This document shows, piece by piece, positions 914-23,366 of a DNA stretch of 25,426 nt. Below the pieces are notes generated by a model. That model did not search any database and had not been told where the DNA came from. It worked only from the letters and a program-made list of their open reading frames with translations. Location of the stretch: IMG/VR virus record IMGVR_UViG_3300022540_000299, positions 1 through 25,426 of that record; one strand, 5' to 3'. This stretch comes from a virus. Position numbers and translations under genes: made by a program. The first letter of the stretch is position 1; the number at the start of each line of letters is the position of its first letter.

Positions 914-2634
914 GCGAACGATATGGCCCAACATTAGAAATTAGTGAACAGACACATGCAAGTAAGTACAGAGGAGAAGGGGAAGCTTTCTCTGAGGGGT
1001 GTGCTAGATTCAGCCACACCCTAGCAGACAACCCCGAACACTTCCGAGCTGTATATGAAATCCTCCTGAACATGAGGTTCATGGGAGGTGGGCGTACACA
1101 AGCTGCTATAGGAGCACCAAGAAATGTTACAGCGTTTAACTGCTTTGTATCTGGCACTGTCGAGGACAGTATGGATGCTATTATGGGTACAGCTGCCGAA
1201 GCTGCTCAAACAATGCGTCTCGGTGGAGGGATTGGCTATGACTTTAGTAATCTTAGGCCTCGTGGGGATCGTATTGTCTCTCTTGGGAGTAAGAGTTCCG
1301 GCCCCATAACCTTCATGGACATCTACAACTCTGTATGCAAGACCATAAGCTCAGCAGGCCATCGTAGAGGAGCTCAGATGGGCTCCCTAAGGGTTGACCA
1401 TCCAGACATTGAAGAGTTCATTAGAGCTAAGCAGAATGAGACTGAGCTACGTCAGTTCAATCTCTCTATTGGTGTGACAGATGAATTCATGCAGGCTGTA
1501 GAGGATGGAACAGAGTTTGATCTTGAGTTTGATGGTCAAGTGTATGAAACTGTCAATGCTGCATTCCTCTATGAGGAAATTATGAGGAGTACATGGGATT
1601 GGGCAGAGCCGGGGTTTCTCCTGATTGACACCATTAACAAGTGGAACAACCTACACTACTGCGAGACTGTTGAAACCACCAACCCTTGTGGTGAACAGCC
1701 TTTGCCCCCTTATGGTGCATGTCTGTTAGGTAGCTACAATCTGGTTAAATACATTGAAGTGGTTAGTGAGACACCTGAGGATATAATTTACCACTTCGGT
1801 ATGGAACAACTTCGTCAAGACATCCCTGTTGTTGTACGAGCAATGGACAACATCATTGACAACACCACCTACCCTCTCCCTCAACAGGAGGAGGAAGCAA
1901 AGGCTAAGCGTAGGATGGGGCTTGGTATTACAGGTGTAGCGAATGCGGGGGAGATACTTGGCTATCCTTATGCCTCTCCTGAGTTTCTTAATTGGTTTGA
2001 AGAAGTGTTAGAGGTGATACGAGATGAAACATATAGAGCAAGTGTCGAGCTGGCTAAAGAAAAAGGCCCATTCCCATTATGGGACAGCGTGGAGTACAGT
2101 AAGGGATTATTCATCCAAACTCTCCCCGACTCTCTCCAAGCTGAAATCAAAGAGCATGGTATACGGAATAGTCATCTTCTATCTGTGGCCCCTACTGGTA
2201 CTATTAGCTTATGTGCTGACAATGTGTCTAGTGGCATTGAGCCTGTCTTTGCTCATACTACTAATCGAACTATTCAAACGTTTGATGGCCCTACTAATGT
2301 CATTGTGGAGGACTATGCGTACAGGGAATACGGGATAGAGGGGAAGACAGCTGACCAGTGTACAGCAGATGACCATTTGAATATGTTAGCTCTCACTCAG
2401 AGGTATGTAGATAGTGCAGTGAGTAAGACTATTAATGTTGATCCTGACATCCCTTGGGAAGACTTCAAGGCAATCTACATGAAGGCGTGGAAGATGGGGT
2501 GTAAAGGTTGCACTACATTCAACGCAAGTGGGAAGAGGTTTGGAATACTTAATGCTGTAAAGACAGAGAAGAGTGACGAAGGTGCAAAAGCTTGTTATAT
2601 TGACCTTGAGACAGGAAATAAGGAGTGTAGCTAA
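910..2634 (+). CDS. nrdJ: Adenosylcobalamin-dependent (class II) ribonucleotide reductase
   Basis: A 574-aa protein that would reduce ribonucleotides to deoxyribonucleotides for phage DNA synthesis, using a cobalamin-generated thiyl radical. Visible landmarks are C78 in FNCFVSG and C271 in GACLLGS as the reducible pair; N258, C260 and E262 in TTNPCGEQPL as the active-site Asn, thiyl-radical Cys and Glu; the APTGTIS loop; and a C-terminal cysteine pair C562/C573 that would re-reduce the active site. The C260-C271 spacing of 11 matches class II enzymes. There is no N-terminal ATP-cone, so overall activity control by dATP is probably absent. GTG 910 is chosen over ATG 883 because AAGGAG (899-904) sits 5 nt upstream and it gives a GTGA overlap. 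The frame is uninterrupted, with no intron, intein or frameshift. No separate radical-generating small subunit is seen nearby. Confidence 0.9.
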   Translation: MSERYGPTLEISEQTHASKYRGEGEAFSEGCARFSHTLADNPEHFRAVYEILLNMRFMGGGRTQAAIGAPRNVTAFNCFVSGTVEDSMDAIMGTAAEAAQTMRLGGGIGYDFSNLRPRGDRIVSLGSKSSGPITFMDIYNSVCKTISSAGHRRGAQMGSLRVDHPDIEEFIRAKQNETELRQFNLSIGVTDEFMQAVEDGTEFDLEFDGQVYETVNAAFLYEEIMRSTWDWAEPGFLLIDTINKWNNLHYCETVETTNPCGEQPLPPYGACLLGSYNLVKYIEVVSETPEDIIYHFGMEQLRQDIPVVVRAMDNIIDNTTYPLPQQEEEAKAKRRMGLGITGVANAGEILGYPYASPEFLNWFEEVLEVIRDETYRASVELAKEKGPFPLWDSVEYSKGLFIQTLPDSLQAEIKEHGIRNSHLLSVAPTGTISLCADNVSSGIEPVFAHTTNRTIQTFDGPTNVIVEDYAYREYGIEGKTADQCTADDHLNMLALTQRYVDSAVSKTINVDPDIPWEDFKAIYMKAWKMGCKGCTTFNASGKRFGILNAVKTEKSDEGAKACYIDLETGNKECS

Positions 2635-3167
2635 TGAGTGTAGAGTTTAAAGCTTGGCCTAAGATACCAAGAGATAAAGGAAGTGGTGTTACAATTACGG
2701 AGAAGATAGATGGAACTAATGCCTGTATCATTATTGAAGAAGGAGTGATTGTTGGTGTTCAGTCTCGTAAGAGACTCATAACACCAGAAGATGATAACTT
2801 CGGTTTTGCTCAATGGGTGCAAGATAATAATGAAGGCTTGTTGCAGCTAGGGGATGGTTATCATTATGGGGAGTGGGCGGGCGAAGGTATACAAAAGAAC
2901 CCCCACCAGATGAAAGGGAAGCATCTATTTCTTTTTAACACTATAAGATGGAACCCGGACAACCCTAACCTCCCTGAGTGTTGTAGTGTTGTTCCTATTC
3001 TATACCAAGGAAAGATGACATCCGACTGCATCACGGATGCTATGGAGGAGCTTCTTGATACAGCTGACAAGTGGGAAAAACCTGAAGGTGTCGTTGTTTA
3101 CCACCACGCATTCAGACATCTTGTTAAATATACTTTTGAGAATACAAAAGGGAAGTGGTGTAATTGA
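2634..3167 (+). CDS. Small RNA ligase (nucleotidyltransferase core)
   Basis: A 177-aa protein with the covalent nucleotidyltransferase motifs of the Rnl2-like RNA ligase family: motif I EKIDGTNA with the AMP-accepting lysine K24, a following SRKRL segment, a motif III-like YGEWAGEG (78-85), a motif IIIa-like FLFNTIRW (99-106), motif IV EGVVVY (151-156) and a motif V-like HLVKYT with K165. It would adenylate itself with ATP and seal RNA (or RNA/DNA) nicks. At 177 aa it is about half the length of T4 Rnl2 and has only the catalytic core, without an added C-terminal domain. The start is the ATG of a TAATG overlap with the RNR stop, implying translational coupling. It is the last gene of the plus-strand operon. 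The DNA-ligase alternative is less likely given its size and motif spacing. Confidence 0.8.
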   Translation: MSVEFKAWPKIPRDKGSGVTITEKIDGTNACIIIEEGVIVGVQSRKRLITPEDDNFGFAQWVQDNNEGLLQLGDGYHYGEWAGEGIQKNPHQMKGKHLFLFNTIRWNPDNPNLPECCSVVPILYQGKMTSDCITDAMEELLDTADKWEKPEGVVVYHHAFRHLVKYTFENTKGKWCN

Positions 3168-3171
3168 ACCC

Positions 3172-3190
3172 CCAAGGAAGAGACCCTTGG
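3172..3190. other. Weak hairpin in the convergent intergenic gap
   Basis: CCAAGG (3172-3177) and CCTTGG (3185-3190) form a 6-bp stem with a 7-nt loop just after the RNA ligase stop, in the only non-coding gap (3168-3224) between the two convergent operons. Neither strand shows a T-run after the stem, so it is a poor intrinsic terminator. It may simply be an RNA 3'-end structure. Nothing else is visible in the gap. Confidence 0.3.
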
Positions 3191-3224
3191 TTCTGGATAG
3201 GCTGGACGCTAGTGGCAAGTCTTA

Positions 3225-3404
3225 TCATATACACTGGAGTCCAGATATTTTCTCTACATCCAACCTAGCAATATCAATCAACTCCCTTGGAGGGATGTTT
3301 ACTTCCTCTGAGGGATTCTGATATTGATACCTGATAGCATCATTGTTAGTGATGATGCCTACAGGCTCTCCACAAAGAAACAATAACACTACCAGTATTT
3401 TCAT
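3225..3404 (-). CDS. Small exported or membrane-anchored protein, 59 aa, end of the lysis cassette
   Basis: A 59-aa ORF that is the last gene of the late operon. Its ATG overlaps the TGA of the 85-aa gene (ATGA), and AGAGGAG lies 9 nt upstream, a convincing ribosome binding site. The N-terminus (MKILVVLLFLCGEP) has one lysine followed by a short hydrophobic run and a cysteine at position 11, like a signal or anchor sequence. The residues before the cysteine (LFL) do not fit a strict lipobox. The rest is polar (YQYQNPSEEV, then a helical ELIDIARLDVEK stretch), with a second cysteine near the end. Position after holin and endolysin suggests a spanin-like or other envelope role, but no spanin signature is certain. 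Confidence 0.7.
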   Translation of the reverse strand: MKILVVLLFLCGEPVGIITNNDAIRYQYQNPSEEVNIPPRELIDIARLDVEKISGLQCI

Positions 3405-3658
3405 TCTCTATCACTCCTCTCTACGATACATTTCTTCATCAAGAACATAGCATCTGAGAGGTCTCCATTCTCCCACACGTTGCTGCAAAGCACGACCATC
3501 TGCTTATTCTCATAAGCAAGAAGCCCGACATACTCTCCGTAGTATGGTCGGGCTTTTTCTTTTATAGCTTCCAGAGTTGTATCCCCTGTGTCAGTCCAGT
3601 GGTCTGCCCACTTGATTCTAACTGAGGGGTATTCCTTAGAAGGGGCTGTAGTCGTCAT
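3401..3658 (-). CDS. Hypothetical 85-aa phage protein containing an antisense terminator
   Basis: An 85-aa soluble protein (starts MTTTAPSKEYPSVRI). The start at 3658 is chosen over an upstream in-frame ATG because AAGGAGG lies 9 nt before it, giving a 23-nt overlap with the holin gene. Aromatic and charged motifs (KWADHWTDTGD, RPYYGEYVG, CSNVWENGDLSD) look like a conserved compact domain, but I cannot name the family. No membrane segment or signal peptide is present. The RPYYGEYVGLL codons coincide with the plus-strand terminator hairpin at 3521-3563, so this coding sequence carries a second function on the other strand. It sits between the holin and the 59-aa exported protein, so a late or lysis-timed role is possible but unproven. 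Confidence 0.75.
   Translation of the reverse strand: MTTTAPSKEYPSVRIKWADHWTDTGDTTLEAIKEKARPYYGEYVGLLAYENKQMVVLCSNVWENGDLSDAMFLMKKCIVERSDRE
3521..3563 (+). terminator. Intrinsic terminator for the plus-strand operon, inside a minus-strand gene
   Basis: On the plus strand AAGCCCGAC (3521-3529) pairs perfectly with GTCGGGCTT (3547-3555). ATACT (3530-3534) pairs with AGTAT (3541-3545), giving a 9+5 bp stem with a single bulged G3546 and a 6-nt loop. It is followed at once by T-runs at 3554-3558 and 3560-3563. This is a textbook factor-independent terminator for transcripts coming from the RNR and ligase genes. On the minus strand the same hairpin is followed by a much poorer T-tract (TTCTTGCTTATG), so it is mainly plus-directed. 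Confidence 0.85.
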
Positions 3659-4043
3659 CCTCCCAGACCTCCTTAGAAGCCTTCTGAGAGGTTTTCTTCT
3701 TCTCCTGATGCCTTGATGCACCCCAAGCAGGGAACGCCCCGTAGAGGAGCACCTGAAGCCCCTCAGAGAGGTTTATACCATTAACCTCAGCGTAAGCTGC
3801 AAATACAAACATAAGGGCAGAGACAACAGGACGGAATAACCCCTTGATAATAGCTTCAGCTGCATAAGCAAGCTTCACCAACCCGTCCACCCAAGGGTAG
3901 GTCTTAGTCTCAAGCATCTTCTCCATGAACTTCTGAGCCATCTCCTGAACCTTAAACACATATTCAGCTCGCTGGTCAGCGTCTTGTATCAGCTTACCTC
4001 CTACCTTGAAGAGGCTTGGTAATATTCCTAGTAATGCTCCCAT
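3636..4043 (-). CDS. Holin (GTA_holin_3TM-like)
   Basis: A 135-aa protein resembling the 'holin of 3TMs' family found in marine phages and gene transfer agents. It would form holes in the inner membrane at the end of infection so the M15 endolysin reaches the wall. Visible parts are an amphipathic N-terminus (1-20), a charged helix (21-48), hydrophobic helices around 53-69, 71-88 (VVSALMFVFAAYAEV) and 94-110 (GLQVLLYGAFPAWGAS), then a charged cytoplasmic tail (EKKKTSQK, EDDDYSPF). The ATG has AGGAG 6 nt upstream. The family call rests on the TYPWVDGL...RP...FPAWGASR pattern and on its position near an endolysin; an unrelated membrane protein remains possible. Confidence 0.75.
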   Translation of the reverse strand: MGALLGILPSLFKVGGKLIQDADQRAEYVFKVQEMAQKFMEKMLETKTYPWVDGLVKLAYAAEAIIKGLFRPVVSALMFVFAAYAEVNGINLSEGLQVLLYGAFPAWGASRHQEKKKTSQKASKEVWEDDDYSPF

Positions 4044-4052
4044 CTCAATCTC

Positions 4053-4841
4053 CTATTGATTGTATCCGTAGCCAATAGGGGCTAAGGCAATAGCGGCTGT
4101 ATTGTATGTGCTATAGTGTCTTAACTTGAATACCACAGCTGAATCTACAGGTATTTTAATACCGTTAGCTATTAATTGGCCTCTAAGATTTCCAGCTGCG
4201 TTCACATATCCTCCTATATATTGTATGCGTGTAGTTTGCCCTAAGTTCTCTGTTCCCCCATTTGCTATAGCGTTCATTAACAAGGAGTGGTAAGCCTCTG
4301 GCGTGCCTCCAGTGGTTACACAGTCTATATGTATGTTTACTTCTACCCAATCTACCCCCAGAGGGATACTATCAAGACCAGCGTAGACATTGTCTGCACC
4401 GCTACCAGTGGGGCCGATACTCTCCCATGTGGCTGAGGCCAGATTACTGTCTACATCATAAATACTAGTTACCCCTAATAGCGGAAACCCAATAGAACTT
4501 GTAACAAACGTACTGAGACCATCTCCCCACGAAGCATCTGTGCCATCTGTAGTTAAGAGCTTTCCAGAGTTTCCTGCCTGAGGAGGGAGGCCACTGGTGA
4601 TAACTGCATCTGCATAGGTTTTATTAACAACATCCCCACCAGAGGTAGGGGAGGCTACATTCACTACCTTATTACTATTCATATCAAGATTAGTAGACAT
4701 AGTGTTAGGTGTAGTGCCATCCCTGCTTAAAGTGTTTTCCATAGCCACTTCAATAGAAGCATTGTTAGCGTTTATGTTTGTCTCAGCAGAGCCGGGGTTC
4801 CCTGAGAGGTTAGATATATCTGTTGTAACTAATTTTGCCAT
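4053..4841 (-). CDS. Tail fibre/appendage protein 2, sharing an N-terminal module with fibre 1
   Basis: A 262-aa protein. Residues 1-56 resemble the N-terminus of the fibre gene at 24113-25324: MAK, then NANNASIE (24-31), a following RD, then NTM and LDMNS (52-56). This is followed by a segment common in phage fibres (VVNKTYAD about 71-78, SGKLLTTDGTDASWGDG). The C-terminal part is beta-rich and probably a trimeric receptor- or glycan-binding head. The shared N-terminus is probably the virion-attachment end. The TTG start farther upstream is rejected because the ATG at 4841 forms a TAATG overlap with the endolysin stop and has GGAG 7 nt upstream. It is unusual in sitting between endolysin and holin, within the lysis genes. 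Confidence 0.75.
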   Translation of the reverse strand: MAKLVTTDISNLSGNPGSAETNINANNASIEVAMENTLSRDGTTPNTMSTNLDMNSNKVVNVASPTSGGDVVNKTYADAVITSGLPPQAGNSGKLLTTDGTDASWGDGLSTFVTSSIGFPLLGVTSIYDVDSNLASATWESIGPTGSGADNVYAGLDSIPLGVDWVEVNIHIDCVTTGGTPEAYHSLLMNAIANGGTENLGQTTRIQYIGGYVNAAGNLRGQLIANGIKIPVDSAVVFKLRHYSTYNTAAIALAPIGYGYNQ

Positions 4842-5203
4842 TAGTAGCTCCAAACCGCTGCATGTTCACGGTTGTCTATGTGAATGAATCGTTGACTGTT
4901 GTTTCCCTTAGCTGAGATACCTACCCCCATGAAGCCATATCTCCTCACAAGGCTCAGCAGCTTGTGTGCCTTAGCTCCATACACCTGTAAATCTACAGCT
5001 CTACCGAGGACATGGTAGGACTTGGGGTAGCCCCCTACCTTCTTGTTATACTCCTCACAACGGTAAGCAGACGTAAGCTTAAAAGGGAAGGAACAGTGTT
5101 CTCTCAGCTCAATAAGCCTTTCCATGAACTCTGTGTCCATCTTAGTCTCACATTCGTCGCAGCTACAGGCAAGCTCTTTCTCAGAGAAGTATTTATAGTT
5201 CAT
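4841..5203 (-). CDS. Endolysin, peptidase M15 (D-Ala-D-Ala carboxypeptidase type)
   Basis: A 120-aa zinc peptidase of the M15A type. Visible catalytic elements are the SAYRC segment (45-49), SYHVLGRAVD with zinc ligands H64 and D71, and FIHID with H108 and D110. The enzyme would cleave peptide cross-links in peptidoglycan at lysis. The length is normal for a single-domain M15A endolysin and there is no separate wall-binding domain. There is no signal peptide, so export should depend on the holin. Cysteines C13, C15 and C18 are close together at the N-terminus, and C37 and C49 lie further in. Start and stop are both in TAATG overlaps with the neighbouring genes. Confidence 0.88.
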   Translation of the reverse strand: MNYKYFSEKELACSCDECETKMDTEFMERLIELREHCSFPFKLTSAYRCEEYNKKVGGYPKSYHVLGRAVDLQVYGAKAHKLLSLVRRYGFMGVGISAKGNNSQRFIHIDNREHAAVWSY

Positions 5204-16953: not shown

Positions 16954-17433
16954 TTAAACGATGTATTCTACAACAACACGAGCCTTGCCTGTCAACAGAT
17001 CGTCAGCAGAAGGGGCTACATATAGTTCACCAGCGGCAGTACCAACGGTAAGGCCAACCAAAGCACCAGAACCAACGGTACGACTACCTACAACAGCAAT
17101 AACTGTCTGTGTAAGATTAGCCGCTGTTAACAGACCATCAAGATCAATGTCTGTACCGTCAGCTTGCTCCAAGCCAATCAGAAGATCGGACGTGGTGGAA
17201 GTAGAAGTGAACGCAGTGAGAACCTCGAAGTGAGCCGAGACAATCGTTGCATTAGCTGGAATAGAGACTTCCTGATTAGTGGAGCCTCCCGTGGGAAGAT
17301 CATCATAGTCGAAAATCCATGTAGCAATCTTCTTCTGATCTTTACTTGTGTATGTGCCACCATACTTTTCATCTACAGAACGAGGGCCGTAATGGCTATT
17401 CACTCCGCGAACGGCATCTGCTTCTAAACCCAT
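16954..17433 (-). CDS. Possible head decoration protein, 159 aa
   Basis: A 159-aa protein directly downstream of the major coat gene. Start 17433 is preferred over an upstream in-frame ATG because AAGGAG lies 7 nt before it and the longer version would overlap the coat gene. The C-terminal two thirds is beta-rich and hydrophobic (QEVSIPANATIVSAHFEVL, TVIAVVGSRTVGSGALVGLT, KARVVVEYIV), like a compact virion-surface protein. There is no signal peptide. Being placed between coat and terminator implies co-expression with the coat at a high level, which fits a stoichiometric decoration protein. The family is not recognised. Confidence 0.65.
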   Translation of the reverse strand: MGLEADAVRGVNSHYGPRSVDEKYGGTYTSKDQKKIATWIFDYDDLPTGGSTNQEVSIPANATIVSAHFEVLTAFTSTSTTSDLLIGLEQADGTDIDLDGLLTAANLTQTVIAVVGSRTVGSGALVGLTVGTAAGELYVAPSADDLLTGKARVVVEYIV

Positions 17434-17444
17434 AATAGTTCTCC

Positions 17445-18425
17445 TTAGTATGTTGAAGCTGAGGTGATGATGCAAGCCAAAGTGTCAACACGTTGAGCGC
17501 CGAAGCCAAAACGAGCAGAAGTCTGGAACTTATCTTCACGGTTTTCAGAATCTCTCCAACCTTCTACGGATGGTTGAGTGCGGGTGGCCTTCATCATTGG
17601 CTTGGTATTGTCATCAAGTACAGACATGAAGATGTTAAATACATCCCCAACAACACTTGAATCATTAGCCAAGCTGTAGGAAGAAGCATCAATAGCTTCT
17701 ACAGCGGCAGCTACAGGTAGCTTGTTAGAGGTGTAGAAGTCAAAACCAAAGATATTACGGATGAATTTATGATCACGCGCAAAACCTTCGGTGACAATAC
17801 CCTCGAACATTGGGTTGTTGCTTACATTGACAATATTGGTGAGGCTATTAAGTGTAGCTTCAACAACAGAATCAACAATAGCAATACGACCAGCCTGAGG
17901 TACGTTAGCTTTATCGAAAGCAAGCTTCATGGCTACGATGTCAGCCATAGTCATATTACGACTAGTACCACCATCACCACCAGCAATCCAACGATGTGGA
18001 CGACCGTTGACTAAGTTTACACTAGCAGCGGTCTGAGCATCATTACAAGCCTGAAGATATTTAGTCTCCGTGCTCTCAGCAATACCGCGAGTGGCTTCCA
18101 TTGCTTGCATAGCCATCAGGCTTTCAATCTGACTACCATCTTGACGCAGTTCATCACTTACTAACCAAGCATCACCAATGTAATCTGTGATGGTGAGGGT
18201 AAGAGTGTTTGTATCAATTGGAGTGAAGTTCATTGGTGTACCTTCAGCTACATCCTGAACTGTACGTGAACCTACCGTTTTGATATTAAGGGTTGTACCA
18301 GAGGCGAAGTCGCTAACATCACGAGCGAATCCTTCTGGTAAGGCCATATCGGGCAAATTCTCAACGATAAACGCGCTGTATTGCTGTGCCTCGATAAAAG
18401 CAGTTGTGTTATTACGATCTGACAT
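17445..18425 (-). CDS. Major capsid (coat) protein
   Basis: A 326-aa protein that would assemble the icosahedral shell, probably with the HK97 fold. Support is its place after the scaffold, its length, and coat-like features: an N-terminal helix (AFIEAQQYSAFIVENL), a beta/E-loop-like region (GTTLNIKTVGSRTVQDVAEG), a long spine-like helix (ESLMAMQAMEATRGIAEST), and A-domain-like strands and helices (RIAIVDSVVEATLN, FIRNIFGFDFYTSN). It ends with a beta-rich segment (GFGAQRVDTLACIITS). AGGAGA lies 7 nt upstream of the ATG, a good ribosome site as expected for an abundant protein. No protease gene lies nearby, so a non-cleaved coat is likely. Confidence 0.82.
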   Translation of the reverse strand: MSDRNNTTAFIEAQQYSAFIVENLPDMALPEGFARDVSDFASGTTLNIKTVGSRTVQDVAEGTPMNFTPIDTNTLTLTITDYIGDAWLVSDELRQDGSQIESLMAMQAMEATRGIAESTETKYLQACNDAQTAASVNLVNGRPHRWIAGGDGGTSRNMTMADIVAMKLAFDKANVPQAGRIAIVDSVVEATLNSLTNIVNVSNNPMFEGIVTEGFARDHKFIRNIFGFDFYTSNKLPVAAAVEAIDASSYSLANDSSVVGDVFNIFMSVLDDNTKPMMKATRTQPSVEGWRDSENREDKFQTSARFGFGAQRVDTLACIITSASTY

Positions 18426-21797: not shown

Positions 21798-23366
21798 TTA
21801 TGACACGCCGCCGAAGCGAGTGTTGTATATGACTTTTCTTTCTCTGTTCACACCTTGATTCATACGCCTAGGTGGAACAGCTACATCAATAGCTGATGCT
21901 ACGCTATCCTTAACATCATCATGTGGTGGATGGGCTAAGATGAGCTCCTCTTCCAACGTCTGACAATGACCACCTCGATAATGCCACATAGCCATGTTAT
22001 CATACCTTGGCTCTAAGATAGCTGACATTCTTTCTTCTTTGTTCCCTTCATTCCTACTTGGGCGAAACTCATCTATCTTTAAGTTAAGACCGTGAGACTT
22101 TACATATTCATCTTTCAGCTCTCTGACAATAGCTGCCTGAGCTACCGTTACCTCAGCCCTTAGTTTCTTAAACTGCCAAGTGGTGTGGAGCCTGAGAATG
22201 TGTTCAAAGTATACAGAAATCTTATCTGTTTTAAACCTGTCAATATCCAGGATGTATATGTTCCTGTCACAGTCTATTCCTATTACAGCTATGGAGGTGT
22301 AATCGGCTCTTTTACTTAAGCTGAATGCAAAATCAATAGCTGAGAAGAGGTTAAGCTTGTTCTCTTTATAATACCAAGAACCTCCTCGATACTCCAGAAA
22401 CTTCTTATCGTAATATTGAAACCTATCTGTACCTATTAAGGCATTATCTGGGTCGTTTGGGTTATTATAATACTGAGCCCGGAATTGAGATTTATCAAGG
22501 TACTTTGCCCTCTTACGAGCCAACACCTTTAGGTCAAAACCAAACCACTTCCCTGTAGAAGACTGTTGACGAGGCCAGAGGAATTCTCCTGTACCATCCC
22601 CAATATCCTCCACCTCCTTCTGCCACACTTCATAGACAGAGTTGGTGGAGACCTTCTCCCCTTCTTCACTAAAGATGTCTTCTTCCATCTGAATCAAGTC
22701 AGAGTAGAGATCGCGAGGGTCATACCTTGTTCCTACAATCCATTCCTCAGCACTTACAGAATCTTTATCTGTCCCTGTGGATTCAATAGAGGACAGGAGG
22801 GAGTATTGACTCCTCACCTTTCTTCGTCCTTCTTCTGTGTAGGCATTTTCCCTCACCACCACATCGTCCATAACTGCGTGTGTGAAGTGGAACCCTGTTA
22901 AGCTTGTTGTAAGTCCAGCTGTCTTGATTGTAGAATCACGTATCCCTTCTTTCTTACGGAGGGGGTGGTCAATCATAATCTCACTGGTAGTCCATCTCTC
23001 TCTCTTACCTTCTTCGCTATTGACCATATCAGGCCAATAGCGATTGTATGTCTTAGATGTTAAGATGTTCTTAATAAAATATAGCTGTGCCTCTGCTAGG
23101 CCTGACGTAGAGGAGATGTACAGGAATGTGCTTGTAGGGTCTCTTGTTATCTGCCAAGCCACCCTGTAGGCGATCATTGCACTCTTCTGATGATCACGAG
23201 GCATTAATACAAGCTGATGATCTTTCCCATCTTCTCTGCACCACCACCTAATCATATCTACATGTATTGCCCCTAACACTCGATGAGGGGCAACCAGCTT
23301 TATGAAGAAGACTAAATCACTTTCAGCTGCAATCCTAATCTCTTCATCTGTTTCAGATAGAGGCAT
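21798..23366 (-). CDS. Terminase large subunit
   Basis: A 522-aa packaging motor with an N-terminal ATPase and a C-terminal nuclease. A Walker A-like loop is at 54-62 (LMPRDHQKS, which lacks the usual glycine before the lysine, a known variation in phage terminases). Walker B is AVMDD (164-168) and a possible coupling motif is GTR (212-214). The nuclease part shows D345 in SAIDFAFS, E405 in RAEVTVAQ, and D483/D484/D487 in PPHDDVKDS, which fit an RNase H-like two-metal site. It drives ATP-powered DNA translocation through the portal and cuts concatemers. The ATG overlaps the small terminase stop (TAATG). Confidence 0.9.
   Translation of the reverse strand: MPLSETDEEIRIAAESDLVFFIKLVAPHRVLGAIHVDMIRWWCREDGKDHQLVLMPRDHQKSAMIAYRVAWQITRDPTSTFLYISSTSGLAEAQLYFIKNILTSKTYNRYWPDMVNSEEGKRERWTTSEIMIDHPLRKKEGIRDSTIKTAGLTTSLTGFHFTHAVMDDVVVRENAYTEEGRRKVRSQYSLLSSIESTGTDKDSVSAEEWIVGTRYDPRDLYSDLIQMEEDIFSEEGEKVSTNSVYEVWQKEVEDIGDGTGEFLWPRQQSSTGKWFGFDLKVLARKRAKYLDKSQFRAQYYNNPNDPDNALIGTDRFQYYDKKFLEYRGGSWYYKENKLNLFSAIDFAFSLSKRADYTSIAVIGIDCDRNIYILDIDRFKTDKISVYFEHILRLHTTWQFKKLRAEVTVAQAAIVRELKDEYVKSHGLNLKIDEFRPSRNEGNKEERMSAILEPRYDNMAMWHYRGGHCQTLEEELILAHPPHDDVKDSVASAIDVAVPPRRMNQGVNRERKVIYNTRFGGVS

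Follow-up and report, generated by a model that had tools for sequence, protein, structure and literature searches.

A predicted intrinsic terminator within the codons of an opposing gene at a convergent phage operon junction

In bacteria, long 3' untranslated regions (UTRs) overlap convergent genes when the terminator is located far downstream (PMC7154746), and in E. coli can and hpt share a bidirectional terminator, with a whole gene covered by antisense RNA (PMC6131387). Bidirectional terminators between convergent genes are also known (PMC7566282), antisense 3' ends are a routine class in Term-seq data (PMC7815308) and phage antisense RNAs are on record (PMC10134795). The density of double-stranded RNA in E. 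coli is 37.9-fold lower at 3' convergent than at 5' overlaps (PMC7373196). The locus described here comes from a contig of 25,426 nt from an uncultured phage, the whole of which is referred to as the window. On the evidence of sequence and predicted RNA structure, a site at 3521-3563 of the plus strand is probably a functional intrinsic (Rho-independent) terminator of a plus-strand operon, and it is positioned inside an 85-aa gene of the opposing operon.

The plus operon encodes a metallophosphoesterase (102-806), the large subunit of ribonucleotide reductase (RNR; 883-2634, phrog_84, E 2e-145) and an RNA ligase (2634-3167; PF09414, E 4e-14; phrog_548, E 1.5e-27), which is the last plus-strand gene. 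The minus operon contains the terminase, head-tail adaptor, major head protein and tail genes. It ends, in order, with an endolysin-like M15 peptidase (4841-5203; PF08291, E 1e-20; phrog_894, E 3e-28), a fibre-like protein, a 135-aa holin-like protein (3636-4043), the 85-aa gene (3401-3658) and a 59-aa gene (3225-3404). The holin-like protein has a weak match to the holin family phrog_3427 (E 0.002) and relatives in several viral loci. The 85-aa gene starts inside the holin-like gene and joins the 59-aa gene through an ATGA overlap; the 59-aa gene has GGAG upstream of its ATG and its product carries a hydrophobic stretch at the N-terminus. Both small genes are very likely real, as judged from the ATGA overlap and from the retention of their order in a related locus, L002 (59-aa homologue at L002:452-637, 46%). 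The 85-aa protein gave no PHROG or Pfam match and no significant PDB match, and its fold prediction, made from three sequences, was uninformative (pLDDT 46.5). Elsewhere in the minus operon, the strongest RNA fold of the window (17601-17800, minus strand; 200-nt z -8.3) lies inside the major head protein gene (17445-18425), the end of which is overlapped by 31 nt by an ORF at 16954-17475. No known RNA families or tRNAs were found in the window.

The putative terminator hairpin (3521-3555, plus strand) consists of a 5' arm, AAGCCCGAC (3521-3529) followed by ATACT (3530-3534), a 6-nt loop, CTCCGT (3535-3540), and a 3' arm formed by AGTAT (3541-3545), a bulged G (3546) and GTCGGGCTT (3547-3555), after which the strand continues with TTTCTTTTAT. 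The core of the stem is a 7-bp GC-rich helix (3523-3529/3547-3553). Immediately 3' of the stem is the U-tract TTTTTCTTTT (3554-3563), with a tail score of 5.55, and from its position the RNA 3' ends are predicted at about 3558-3563. The initial annotation had described a 9-bp plus 5-bp hairpin with one bulge and a T-run; these elements are present as described, except that two Ts were counted in both stem and tail. The first two Ts of TTTTTCTTTT already form the two terminal A-U pairs of the '9-bp' stem, and the site can be described equivalently with a 10-base T-run after a 7+5-bp stem or with TTTCTTTT after a 9+5-bp stem. The hairpin starts 353 nt past the RNA ligase stop (3167), in agreement with the roughly 350 nt given at the outset, and the site was also correctly placed wholly within the 85-aa gene, where it occupies codons about 35-47, KARPYYGEYVGLL. 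Directly upstream is a further 7-bp hairpin, TGCTTAT-TCTC-ATAAGCA (3501-3518), that has no counterpart in L002. The 31-nt core folds with -16.6 kcal/mol, and the region 3500-3565, which includes the upstream hairpin, with -27.6 kcal/mol (RNAfold; z -6.7, none of 200 shuffles as good). A potential internal start or second reading frame at the loop (GGAGAGTATG, minus strand) is short and not kept in L002.

The site was scored with D, a standard terminator score. On the plus strand D is 35.6, compared with 6.5 on the minus strand, where the U-tract is poorer (TTCTTGCTTATG) and the signal weak. The stem itself is about equally stable on the minus strand (-17.1 kcal), as would be expected if it served as a translation or stability element of the late mRNA with an incidental plus-strand T-run. 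That reading is very improbable: the stem is in the middle of the gene, the asymmetry of the T-run favours the plus strand and the homologous mRNAs are without the stem.

The gap between the two operons (3168-3224) holds a weak 6-bp hairpin (3173-3191, D -19) that is not a terminator. The initial annotation had noted this hairpin, and was right that the gap is without a good terminator; it missed two further plus-strand hairpins nearby. The first, at 3202-3244, reaches from the gap into the end of the 59-aa gene and is unlikely to be a terminator, having a 17-nt loop and an offset T-run (-17.1 kcal, D -25). The second (3283-3315) is a 13-bp hairpin inside the 59-aa gene (-18.6 kcal, D +1.8) and is a possible partial terminator. 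It is better paired on the plus strand, on which three G-U pairs replace what are mismatches on the minus strand, and on the plus strand the segment around it (3201-3400; z -5.0) ranks with the most structured of the contig. A two-stage 3' end can be envisaged, in which some transcripts stop at 3283-3315 and the rest at 3555 as a fail-safe. Such an arrangement is compatible with a terminator at 3521-3563 but is on balance unlikely, as the tail at 3315 (TTCTGATATT) is poor, D is only near threshold and the hairpin is no outlier in the synonymous test described below. The earlier proposal that plus-strand RNA runs antisense through the whole 59-aa gene is accordingly made uncertain by this borderline hairpin, which could stop some transcripts. 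No minus-strand terminator scoring well was found past 3225. The orientation and position of the 3521-3563 site fit a convergent junction that has no terminator in its gap.

Such a stem and T-run could also arise by chance from codon choice and the lysine-rich IKEKA segment of the protein, with the plus operon ending Rho-dependently or elsewhere. The site is the only one with D ≥ 20 on either strand of the 25.4-kb window; 100 dinucleotide shuffles contained on average 0.05 sites at D ≥ 20, and none reached D 30. When the 85-aa protein was held fixed and its codons were redrawn according to codon usage in the phage, neither D 35.6 nor the stem energy was reached in any of 40,000 synonymous recodings, and a scan of the whole gene under a looser rule found an equivalent in 1 of 20,000. 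The codons of the stem are uncommon choices (GCC 0.17, CGA 0.07, CCA 0.17, GTC 0.11), as are those of the tail (AAA GAA AAA). These figures, the correct strand and a convergent junction otherwise without a terminator argue against chance. In its favour, the tail alone is attained in 1.5% of synonymous recodings and so is not far from what the protein provides, and under a looser criterion of hairpin energy -20.3 kcal/mol was reached in 2 of 40 shuffles. Moreover, a hairpin without a T-run in the terminase gene (23007-23054), an inverted repeat CGCTATTG...CAATAGCG, is the largest structural outlier to synonymous recoding (z -7.1), exceeding the 3521-3563 site, and therefore unusual stems in this genome can have other causes. 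Because of this larger outlier, the looser-rule result and the choice of the site for testing on account of its conspicuousness, its improbability is not proof of selection. Chance is nonetheless an improbable explanation. A stable GC-rich hairpin, an immediate U-tract and a score beyond chance are among the features looked for in an intrinsic terminator, and all three are found at 3521-3563.

Only two loci in IMG/VR yielded a homologue of the 85-aa protein, L002 (60% identity) and L057 (46%); none was added by searches of phage records and genome contigs, or of IMG/VR by pattern or alignment. Compared directly, L002:204-455 is 61% identical to the 85-aa protein, and L057 is 56% identical to L002. 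The layout of L002 is convergent with an RNR operon, and the holin/85-aa/59-aa order and overlaps are as in the window. The RNR-side operon of L002 has a holin-family gene of its own (L002:945-1202, minus strand; phrog_7045, E 1e-13), opposite the other holin-like gene. In L057 the locus is not convergent: the 85-aa homologue (L057:4464-4799) is codirectional with and upstream of a terminase-like gene, and no 59-aa homologue was noticed adjacent to it.

The initial annotation had asked whether stem pairing is kept through compensatory synonymous changes in the 85-aa gene, and had named as a refuting outcome homologues with the protein retained but the stem complementarity and T-run gone. That outcome is the one seen: both homologues keep the protein and lose the outer stem and the T-run. 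L002 has codons in common with the window in the inner part (CCATAC-ACGGAGAGTATG), which would account for the inner 5-bp stem on the chance explanation; its outer arms carry 8 differences. At the corresponding position L002 is without this hairpin, and neither its gap nor its 85-aa and 59-aa genes contain a well-scoring one; this junction can therefore do without an intrinsic terminator. The absence of the site from both homologues favours chance as well. On these sequences long-standing conserved dual coding is ruled out, which does not in itself rule out activity in this phage.

The alignment of the 85-aa protein with both homologues contains no gap at the stem codons; the differences at the site are therefore substitutions, and an origin by insertion was rejected. 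As two homologues are without the site, its gain by substitution in the lineage of the window is the simpler reading of what is an unrooted, three-sequence comparison. Residues 37, 46 and 48 set the window apart from both L002 and L057, and residues 37 and 46 are encoded in the stem arms. The changes at these two positions (K to R at 37, Y to L at 46) may be tied to the origin of the site, and are suggestive only, given that 14 window-only columns are scattered over the protein.

On the most likely account, the plus operon ends by ordinary intrinsic termination at a site that, the gap being without a terminator, has moved inside the opposing gene. RNA of the plus strand beyond the ligase stop (3167) would be untranslated, leaving the hairpin free to form, and the polymerase would stop in the U-tract near 3558-3563. 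Ribosomes are able to mask the stems of intragenic terminators. The minus-strand mRNA would contain the same stem, and ribosomes on the 85-aa frame together with the poorer U-tract would spare the late transcripts. Point substitutions in this lineage, among them those behind the rare codons and behind the altered residues 37 and 46, would have built the site. The outcome would be a 3' UTR of about 390 nt, antisense to the whole of the 59-aa gene and to roughly half of the 85-aa one.

This predicted overlap raises the question of regulation by antisense RNA. In an excludon-like arrangement, a structured plus-strand 3' UTR, the length of which is set by the terminator, would delay the 59-aa and 85-aa genes by pairing with the lysis-region mRNA at its end. 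The geometry of the overlap of about 390 nt is consistent with this, as is the unusual structure of 3168-3565 on both strands (z -5.4 and -5.1), which includes long hairpins in the 59-aa gene and takes in the top-ranking plus-strand windows of the contig; precedents are provided by excludons with 3' overlaps (PMC7154746) and by phage antisense RNAs (PMC10134795). Against it, the arrangement is not conserved, the corresponding region of L002 being unstructured (z -0.2 and -1.5) and without a terminator, and the double-stranded RNA density at 3' convergent overlaps in E. coli is far lower (PMC7373196). Antisense regulation is accordingly doubtful, and the fuller proposal, of a terminator recently evolved in opposing codons with the changes at residues 37 and 46 and a structured antisense 3' UTR whose pairing with the end of the lysis-region transcript delays it, is more doubtful still. 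A regulatory role for the overlap is a possibility raised by its geometry, and is not claimed here; the preferred interpretation remains that of an intrinsic terminator of the plus operon.

Looser relatives, in which the junction has a more usual form, and an unrelated phage lend further support to the terminator reading. In L052, the RNR of which is 61% identical, a terminator (L052:2303-2317) is located in the gap between the RNR operon and a holin gene, with D of 39 in one direction and 23 in the other. In L003 a terminator of D 36 is found just past a holin-like gene and serves a convergent gene without assigned function. Both are plus-equivalent and lie in the gap at a junction of a holin-family and a convergent gene. 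Automatic ORF classification of terminators in opposing genes proved too crude, as the window's own site was misfiled and most 'antisense-inside' cases had no protein match; a single case, in L016, was accepted. This terminator (L016:1835-1856, minus strand; D 32.8) falls within the codons for KKKGAEAP at the 3' end of a DnaB-like helicase gene that opposes it, and 3 nt away is the end of a small L016 gene with an HTH-like sequence (1877-2104, minus strand).

The window offers a clean, quantified case of a terminator built from the codons of an opposing gene. It suggests that a single phage lineage can acquire such sites through point substitution. It also warns that dual coding, however striking, is no guarantee of conservation and that, where a gap is without a terminator, the inside of the opposing genes should be searched.

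In its GC-rich stem, short loop, immediate U-tract and location downstream of an operon, the predicted terminator is like intrinsic terminators in general, but it differs in being 353 nt past the last gene and in opposing coding sequence. With the 3'-overlap and excludon arrangements (PMC7154746, PMC6131387, PMC7815308) it shares a far-downstream terminator that would give a 3' UTR antisense to a convergent gene, whereas it is itself made of codons and is lineage-specific. Bidirectional terminators (PMC7566282; L052:2303-2317) similarly serve a junction at which an operon converges on one that ends in a holin gene; these lie in the gap, and that of L052 scores both ways, while that of the window is inside a gene and scores well one way only. 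The L016 terminator is likewise strong and within opposing codons, with its U-tract opposite lysine codons (KKKGAEAP, compared with KEKARP in the window), although it lies at the very end of the opposing gene and not in the middle, and the genes are unrelated. A terminator inside an opposing gene is an arrangement already known and recurring, of which the site in the window is a lineage-specific example.
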